This document shows, one piece after another, positions 14,182-35,585 of a stretch of 64,000 bases of DNA; the stretch's first letter is position 1, and every line of letters begins with the position of its first letter. The notes under the pieces were generated by a model, which saw only the letters and a list, made by a program, of their open reading frames with translations, made no database searches and was not told where the DNA came from. A program made the position numbers and the translations under genes. Origin of the DNA: Streptomyces indicus (GTDB taxonomy: Bacteria; Actinomycetota; Actinomycetes; Streptomycetales; Streptomycetaceae); assembly GCF_900100315.1 (NCBI RefSeq), contig NZ_FNFF01000011.1, positions 1 to 64,000 of the forward strand, in the 5' to 3' direction.

Positions 14182-14208
14182 GAGCGCCTAGGCGCCGGCA
14201 GTACGTCC

Positions 14209-14243
14209 ACAGGGCGGTCACCCCTCGCGGGTGGCCGCCCTGT
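14209..14243 (+). terminator. Strong terminator after rpoC
   Basis: ACAGGGCGGTCACCC (14209-14223) pairs with GGGTGGCCGCCCTGT (14229-14243) over 15 positions (one T-G pair), loop CTCGC, followed by GTCGTAT. Confidence 0.88.
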
Positions 14244-14287
14244 GTCGTATGGTGCCGAGCGGGTGTGCCTGTGCGCGTGCAGTTGTT

Positions 14288-14316
14288 TTGACCGGAGCCG
14301 ATGCGATAGGTACGCT
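14288..14316 (+). promoter_or_regulatory. Promoter of the str operon
   Basis: TTGACC (14288-14293), 17 bases, TACGCT (14311-14316). The -10 hexamer is the same as in the promoter before rpsJ. It would give an RNA leader of about 190 bases before rpsL. Confidence 0.75.
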
Positions 14317-14437
14317 CAGACCTTGTGCCTGGGGTGTGCCCTGGCTCGTGCGCGTGCCTACGTCCGCGCGATGAGCCTCTCTAAGGGCCACGCCGCAATC
14401 TGTGCCCTCCTCGCCGTATGGCGGGAGCCTGCAGTGC

Positions 14438-14467
14438 GCGACACACCCGACCGCGTGGGTCGGAGAA
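14438..14467 (+). promoter_or_regulatory. Leader element shared with the S10 operon (copy 1)
   Basis: A 30-base segment that reappears with one change at 19325-19354. It starts GCGACAC and contains a hairpin CCGACC-GCGTG-GGTCGG followed by AGAA. It lies 45 bases before rpsL, after another hairpin near 14407-14428 (CGCC-GTAT-GGCG core). Function unknown; position in two ribosomal-protein leaders suggests a shared regulator or RNA processing. Confidence 0.7.
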
Positions 14468-14511
14468 GTTCCAGGTTAGCTTTATGACGGCACACAGAAA
14501 CCGGAGAAGTA

Positions 14512-14883
14512 GTGCCTACGATCCAGCAGCTGGTCCGCAAGGGCCGGCAGGACAAGGTCGAGAAGAACAAGACGCCCGCACTCGAGGGTTCGCCCCAGCG
14601 TCGCGGCGTCTGCACGCGTGTCTTCACCACCACCCCCAAGAAGCCGAACTCGGCGCTGCGGAAGGTCGCGCGTGTTCGCCTGACCTCTGGCATCGAGGTC
14701 ACCGCTTACATCCCGGGTGAGGGCCACAACCTGCAGGAGCACTCCATCGTGCTCGTGCGCGGTGGCCGTGTGAAGGACCTGCCGGGTGTTCGCTACAAGA
14801 TCATCCGCGGTTCCCTGGACACGCAGGGCGTCAAGAACCGTAAGCAGGCTCGTTCCCGCTACGGCGCCAAGAAGGAGAAGTAA
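14512..14883 (+). CDS. rpsL: 30S ribosomal protein S12
   Basis: S12 lies at the decoding centre. The 123-residue protein has the streptomycin loop [13 protein letters not shown] with Lys43 and Lys44, and [10 protein letters not shown] with Lys88; these are wild type, so no classical streptomycin-resistance change is seen. GTG start with GGAGAAG 3-5 bases upstream. First gene of the str operon; rpsG follows after 2 bases. Confidence 0.98.
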
Positions 14884-18860: not shown

Positions 18861-18897
18861 TTGTCGATCGCGGTACCTGAGCTTCCAGCTCGAAACC

Positions 18898-18934
18898 GGA
18901 GCCCCCGTACACCTTCCGGGTGTACGGGGGCTCC
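18898..18934 (+). terminator. Strong terminator after tuf
   Basis: A perfect stem of about 16 pairs: GGAGCCCCCGTACACC (18898-18913) with GGTGTACGGGGGCTCC (18919-18934), loop TTCCG, then GGCCTTTTCC. Confidence 0.93.
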
Positions 18935-19414
18935 GGCCTTTTCCGGCCCGGTTTCTCAGGGGCCGGGGGAGACCTTGGTCATACGGGAATCGTGATCCGG
19001 GTTTGACAAGCGGGCCCGCGGGGGTACGCTTCTCGGCCCGATTGGCGTCCGATGCAACCCGTATGGCACACTATCCAGGTTGCTCGGTTGAGTGCCGATG
19101 CTGCGCGCCTCCCGCCGGGAGGACCGGAAGCGAGTCCCACAGTACTCGTCGCCTTAACTGCCATCCGTGGCAGCGCTGGGGCGGACGTACGGGAATCTTC
19201 CGGGAAGTGCAGTGCTGTTGCTCGGCCAGGCGCCCGGTGGGTGTTCTTTCCCCGCCACTGCGGTCCTCGGCGGCCGTGACCCCCTAGCAGGGAAATCCTT
19301 CGGGAGATCTGTGTCAGTGCGGTTGCGACACGCCCGACCGCGTGGGTCGGAGAAAGAGTCCACAGAGCCCCCGGGTTCCAGAGCGTTTACTAGAGACAGG
19401 ACTACTGAGTAGCC
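18935..19414 (+). promoter_or_regulatory. S10 operon promoter and long leader
   Basis: No gene is seen in these 480 bases. The promoter is TTGACA (19003-19008), 16 bases, TACGCT (19025-19030), an excellent vegetative match. The leader of about 380 bases folds locally: CCTCCC-GCC-GGGAGG (19108-19122), CTGCCA-TCCG-TGGCAG (19158-19173), and the shared element at 19325-19354. In E. coli L4 controls the S10 leader; no similar target could be recognised. Confidence 0.75.
19325..19354 (+). promoter_or_regulatory. Leader element shared with the str operon (copy 2)
   Basis: Identical in 29 of 30 bases to 14438-14467; the single change (A to G) is in the base after GCGACAC, outside the CCGACC/GGTCGG hairpin. 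It lies 60 bases before rpsJ. The short CAGTGC motif shortly upstream is also shared between the two leaders. Confidence 0.7.
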
Positions 19415-19723
19415 ATGGCGGGACAGAAGATCCGCATCCGGCTCAAGGCCTACGACCACGAGGTCATCGACTCCTCGGCGAAGAAGATCGTCGAGACGGT
19501 GACCCGTACTGGTGCGTCGGTCGCGGGCCCGGTGCCGCTCCCCACCGAGAAGAACGTGTACTGCGTCATCAAGTCGCCGCACAAGTACAAGGACTCGCGC
19601 GAGCACTTCGAGATGCGCACGCACAAGCGCCTGATCGACATTCTCGACCCGACCCCCAAGACCGTTGACTCTCTGATGCGACTCGACCTCCCGGCCGGTG
19701 TCGACATCGAGATCAAGCTCTAA
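19415..19723 (+). CDS. rpsJ: 30S ribosomal protein S10
   Basis: S10 is part of the 30S head and is also NusE, the NusB partner in antitermination. The 102-residue protein has [20 protein letters not shown], the long loop [20 protein letters not shown] and the carboxy-terminal [14 protein letters not shown] start; no strong ribosome site (GACAGG is about 15 bases upstream). First gene of an 11-gene S10 operon reaching rpsQ. Confidence 0.98.
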
Positions 19724-35507: not shown

Positions 35508-35585
35508 TCTCCGACAGACATCCGTCTGCTCGGATACTGACTCCGGTACCTGACACGGCCGGGGCAGCACACAAGGAGAAACATC

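Follow-up and report, generated by a model that had tools for sequence, protein, structure and literature searches.

The two leader copies

The window, by which we mean the whole 64,000-nt stretch of Streptomyces indicus DNA that was analysed, includes rpsL at the head of the str operon and rpsJ at the head of the S10 operon, each preceded by a copy of the same 30-base element. The copy before rpsL, GCGACACACCCGACCGCGTGGGTCGGAGAA (14438–14467), and the copy before rpsJ, GCGACACGCCCGACCGCGTGGGTCGGAGAA (19325–19354), differ at one base (29 of 30 the same), and they end 44 nt 5′ of the rpsL start (GTG, 14512) and 60 nt 5′ of the rpsJ start (ATG, 19415), in agreement with an earlier note on this DNA that described near-identical elements 45–60 bases before the first gene of two ribosomal operons. 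The features referred to below are as follows.

14288–14316, + strand: predicted rpsL promoter, TTGACC-17-TACGCT, called from consensus and conservation only
14438–14467, + strand: candidate extended WhiA-type site before rpsL (uniqueness, class-wide model matches, core fitting GAYACRCY; PMC11701221)
14439–14463: conserved unit of the rpsL copy, CGACACACCCGACCGCGTGGGTCGG
14440–14447: core of the rpsL copy, GACACACC
14512–14883, + strand: rpsL (ribosomal protein S12), str operon gene 1
19003–19030, + strand: predicted rpsJ promoter, TTGACA-16-TACGCT, conserved in part of the Streptomyces-type loci
19311–19315, + strand: GTGTC opposite the rpsJ GACAC, an inverted second WhiA box with 11 bp between
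19325–19354, + strand: candidate extended WhiA-type site before rpsJ (uniqueness, class-wide model matches, S. venezuelae ChIP peak; PMC3781837)
19326–19350: conserved unit of the rpsJ copy, CGACACGCCCGACCGCGTGGGTCGG
19327–19334: core of the rpsJ copy, GACACGCC
19415–19723, + strand: rpsJ (ribosomal protein S10), S10 operon gene 1

When the whole 8.2-Mb genome was searched with the 30-base pattern, allowing up to 3 mismatches, only these two stretches matched, and the reversed pattern, used as a control, gave 0 matches. Within the window, GACACRCCCGA occurs in the two leader elements only, and bare GACAC 110 times. Alignment of the host loci defines a conserved unit of 25 bp, CGACAC-R-CCCGASC-N-CG-K-GGGTCGG, in which the core GACACRCC is near-invariant (46 distinct sites; columns 3–6 and 8–11 fixed, column 7 A or G). 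The AGAA tail, which had been taken as part of the element, is conserved neither among relatives nor in the class-wide loci. The inverted GTGTC at 11-bp spacing from GACAC is found in 15 of 137 rpsJ loci. A second stretch common to both leaders, GTTCCAGGTTAGCTTTA before rpsL (14468–14490) and GTTCCAGAGCGTTTA before rpsJ (19375–19392), was seen in several Streptomyces-type loci only.

Distribution among actinomycetes

Of 56 good-quality relatives, 48 have the pattern, in most cases twice and with several kb between the copies, and a 29-nt sequence model built without structure matches 268 of the 297 Actinomycetes genomes (about 90 % of those sampled), at one or both operons, reduced genomes of 1.2–1.5 Mb among them. 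Some families retain both copies and others only one. Host loci identified by either the pattern or the model number 236, and 233 of these are found 5′ of rpsL or rpsJ in sense orientation, the remainder being two loci cut by contig ends and one weak false match. Beyond the class, about 30 rpsL regions of other members of the phylum were essentially free of it. With no third match in the genome and with the copies kept in relatives and across the class, the common control of the two operons that the earlier note had proposed is well supported.

In the small genomes of one family (f64), judged to be acI-type from base composition and size, there is an additional short copy, CGACACGCC, 5′ of the rpsL promoter and facing either way. 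Here (L094, L120, L135–L137, L452, L461, L462 and L470) the rpsL promoter lies between two WhiA-like copies, the upstream one in either orientation and the downstream one in sense. In part of the family, the downstream rpsL core reads CAACAC, not CGACAC (AACAC for GACAC).

The Tsukamurella sequence NZ_LR134464.1, labelled a plasmid, includes an S10 operon with the element before rpsJ, and is either a plasmid with an essential operon or a mislabelled piece of chromosome.

Promoters and transcription of the element

Transcripts from the two predicted promoters would start near 14323, about 115 nt 5′ of the rpsL element, and near 19037, about 290 nt 5′ of the rpsJ element, the evidence for the rpsJ promoter being the weaker. 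The −10 sequence TACGCT is indeed shared by the two. The CAGTGC motif, also listed in the earlier note, is present in both promoters but is not retained in relatives. The best −35/−10 pair exceeds the set score in 94 of 102 rpsL loci, at about 50–225 nt 5′ of the element, compared with 11 of 102 shuffled control sequences; for rpsJ, 39 of 137 loci pass (14 when shuffled), at about 250–350 nt. With a promoter predicted upstream at so many rpsL loci, transcription probably runs through the element, at any rate before rpsL. The element was also considered as the −35 of a proximal promoter and this was rejected, there being no −10 at a constant distance downstream; the exception is a Streptomyces-type TANNNT at offset 13 downstream in 15 of 102 rpsL loci.

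Long inverted repeats with 16- and 18-bp arms follow rpoC (14208–14244) and tuf (18896–18936), and are probably terminators between operons.

Identification of WhiA as the candidate regulator

In Mycoplasma gallisepticum, the rpsJ operon promoter contains GAYACRCY, to which WhiA binds; the protein represses this promoter and is responsive to ATP. The same study reports the core ahead of rpsJ in a number of phyla, Actinobacteria among them, followed by motifs specific to each clade (PMC11701221). In Streptomyces venezuelae, where the WhiA motif is GACAC and the targets share nothing beyond it, ChIP-seq identified rpsJ as a target, 75 bp from the start codon, and rpsJ expression is down in a whiA mutant; the region upstream of whiA is a further target, with an autoregulated promoter inside the preceding gene (PMC3781837). 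WhiA sites are published as having no orientation or strand preference. Hence, the remark in the earlier note that no regulator had been described was wrong, as the core of the element matches the WhiA box and binding of WhiA at rpsJ has been reported (PMC3781837, PMC11701221).

In both copies (14440–14447 and 19327–19334) the GACACRCC core fits GAYACRCY, with the R position free here too. Most Streptomyces-type rpsJ loci have the element beginning 78–84 bp before the start codon, a position similar to that of the S. venezuelae peak at 75 bp, the comparison being across species and with another strain; the S. indicus rpsJ copy likewise sits at about this distance. The genome encodes one WhiA, with WhiA_N, LAGLIDADG_WhiA and HTH_WhiA domains (Pfam), that hardly differs from its S. 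venezuelae counterpart of PDB 8dy7/8dy9, and the region upstream of its gene, inside the preceding gene, includes CGACACGCCC at −208. All 30 genomes tested (30/30) encode WhiA. The short copies in f64 and in phages (see below) run both ways and the long element before rpsL and rpsJ is invariably in sense; a short copy in either orientation upstream of the rpsL promoter is as expected of a DNA site.

Some observations count against WhiA. It is encoded even in genomes that lack the element, no WhiA residue was found to co-vary with the G-to-A change (CAACAC) in the f64 rpsL sites, and the main texts of the ChIP papers do not list rpsL among the WhiA targets. None of the papers searched links WhiA, in its main text, to phage sites or to rpsL.

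The element is real, strongly conserved and regulatory and, judged by comparison of sequences, each copy is very likely to be a double-stranded DNA operator for WhiA, through which transcription of both operons, str and S10, would follow the state of the cell. What was computed here is the match to the published core, the uniqueness, the class-wide conservation, the location, the presence of WhiA and the absence of RNA covariation (below); the papers supply binding at rpsJ in S. venezuelae, and both binding and repression at rpsJ in Mycoplasma. Binding at rpsL we infer, and likewise the role of the 3′ half of the site and the sign of regulation, on which the published cases disagree: rpsJ expression falls in the S. 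venezuelae whiA mutant, whereas rpsJ is repressed by WhiA in Mycoplasma. The two copies are best explained as a kind of element already known at rpsJ, its equivalent at rpsL and an extended form found across the Actinomycetes. A further point against WhiA is that its boxes elsewhere consist only of GACAC, so that the extra conservation over 25 bp needs a reason of its own.

Copies in phages and plasmids

The 19-nt core occurs in at least 120 stretches of viral contigs. Among the matches listed, many are in AT-rich contigs with up to three copies each, and copies lying between resolved genes are mostly on the strand opposite to those genes. In 108 AT-rich viral contigs selected for the motif, CGACACGCC was found 499 times (2.2 expected), and in the same contigs CGACACGCCG, a different extension that was not a criterion in their choice, was found 258 times (0.4 expected). 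Many of the viral contigs L314–L425 and L267–L280 are AT-rich and actinophage-like, with one to three copies of CGACACGCCCGASCNCGKG plus copies of the shorter CGACACGCCG, all intergenic, and some intergenic phage copies adjoin TGTGAN6TCACA (CRP/GlxR-like) sites and terminator-like hairpins.

In 21 phage contigs picked by a WhiB gene, there are 12 copies of CGACACGCC, in 8 contigs, where about 1.5 were expected, though this is a weak test: the WhiB query had come from a contig with the motif, and close relatives of that query account for 9 of the 12 copies, leaving 3 in the 14 contigs further removed, with about 1 expected. WhiB-like proteins were picked out by regular expression in 7 of 126 motif-bearing loci, and Pfam confirmed two of the 7.

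Short-query BLAST of phage and plasmid collections gave mostly chance matches, and only those in actinobacterial plasmids were taken further. In Rhodococcus plasmids, the core lies about 80–110 bp 5′ of non-ribosomal genes; the 19-bp core is in sense orientation before an FtsK-like gene, a divergent hypothetical gene and cutinase-family genes (L282, about 1590–1620 and 2503; L283, 2501; L284, 2501).

WhiB is the partner of WhiA. It is a tentative and somewhat doubtful proposal that actinophages, especially AT-rich ones resembling phages of freshwater acI-type bacteria, carry several host WhiA operators in their intergenic regulatory regions, some together with a WhiB gene, and would thereby capture the host WhiA/WhiB system for ribosome supply and cell division, whose signal the phage genes would then follow or titrate.

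Alternatives to a WhiA operator

The CCGACC/GGTCGG hairpin emphasized in the earlier note can be drawn in both copies, but neither folding nor covariation bears it out. The 46 distinct sites include 0 compensatory changes, the stem is paired in 84.8 % of cells compared with 84.9 % in shuffles, and each of the two inner pairs is broken in 12 of the 46; folding energies are no better than those of shuffles (z=0.24, −0.17 and −1.17) and Rfam has no match at the element at the gathering threshold. The Rfam model RF03132 (L17 Actino-Proteobacteria ribosomal protein leader) matches elsewhere in the window, at 35511–35567. The alternative pairings CACGC/GCGTG and CCCG/CGGG, found by eye, are broken by A7 or T18 in many hosts. 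No boxA-like stretch was seen in the leader on inspection by eye. This assembly yielded no 16S gene with which rRNA mimicry or pairing might be compared. Judging from the aligned sites, the selective constraint is on the linear sequence, and the element is probably not an RNA hairpin with a partner yet to be named. A hairpin present in the two transcripts, recognized by a ribosomal protein or other RNA-binding factor and controlling translation or transcript stability, would agree with the predicted promoters upstream and with the invariable sense orientation before rpsL and rpsJ. It is nevertheless improbable: besides the results above, the core has been published as a DNA motif, and the small related genomes and the phages have copies running either way, as would suit a site on DNA. 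The binding site for a ribosomal protein, the NusE antitermination site and the RNase site put forward in the earlier note are unsupported for the same reasons.

Leaders of long operons and positions near plasmid and phage genes would suit a transcription-elongation signal (a pause, or an antitermination site of the ops or put kind) recognized by RNA polymerase or a NusG-type factor. We give this hardly any credence, given that f64 has short copies facing either way ahead of the rpsL promoter and that most phage copies run antisense to the genes beside them. A 25-bp conserved unit far exceeds the GACAC box, and published WhiA targets have no further sequence in common (PMC3781837), as might be expected if the site belonged to a different, undescribed class-wide transcription factor and contained GACAC by chance. 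However, the fit covers the 8 bp of GAYACRCY, before the same gene in several phyla, and the WhiA ChIP signal is at the same place, making an unrelated factor an unlikely owner of the site.

Two halves of the extended site

If each copy is a WhiA operator, the C-terminal HTH domain of WhiA would read the 5′ half, (C)GACACRCC, and its LAGLIDADG (homing-endonuclease-like) domain would probably contact the conserved 3′ half, CGASCNCGKGGGTCGG. Three genomes of family f72 retain CGACACGCCCG before rpsJ but lack the 3′ half, and no other WhiA compared is as diverged as that of f72 (61–65 % identity to S. indicus WhiA vs 72–83 % for others). The correlation is imperfect as another f72 genome, G240, retains the 3′ half despite an equally diverged WhiA. 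In the phage and plasmid copies the 5′ part is kept and the sequence after it varies. The loss in f72 and the variable 3′ part together suggest such a division between the two domains. The state to which WhiA, when bound at both sites, would couple the two operons may be energy or growth, for which there is the mycoplasma precedent, or development together with WhiB, as in Streptomyces.

WhiA has been studied mainly as a regulator of sporulation and division in Streptomyces. If the element is its operator, WhiA would regulate two large translation operons, elongation factor genes included, in nearly all actinomycetes. GACAC, at 5 bp, cannot by itself account for the choice of sites by WhiA, and an extended 25-bp site with two separable halves is a concrete answer open to testing; the copies in phages direct attention to a point of host control. 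The rpsL site matching that at rpsJ, the class-wide 25-bp form, the position downstream of the predicted rpsL promoter and the repeated copies in actinophage intergenic regions are all apparently new to the literature.

Comparison with known systems

Like the Rfam ribosomal protein leaders (e.g. RF03132), the element is a conserved noncoding sequence 5′ of a ribosomal protein gene, but unlike them it has neither an Rfam match nor covariation. With the Mycoplasma rpsJ site (GAYACRCY plus an auxiliary GTTGT; PMC11701221) it shares the core, the gene and a conserved half downstream. However, here the element is additionally found before rpsL, the second half is CGASCNCGKGGGTCGG rather than the −35-like GTTGT, and, counting against WhiA, the site is downstream of the predicted start whereas in Mycoplasma it is at the promoter (PMC11701221). 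The S. venezuelae system has a WhiA nearly identical to the one here, and has in common the GACAC core and rpsJ as a ChIP-seq target, 75 bp from the start (PMC3781837, PMC4850268). It differs in that rpsL is absent from the targets in the main text of those papers, and while the published S. venezuelae sites share only the 5-bp GACAC, the two sites described here share 25 bp that are conserved class-wide.
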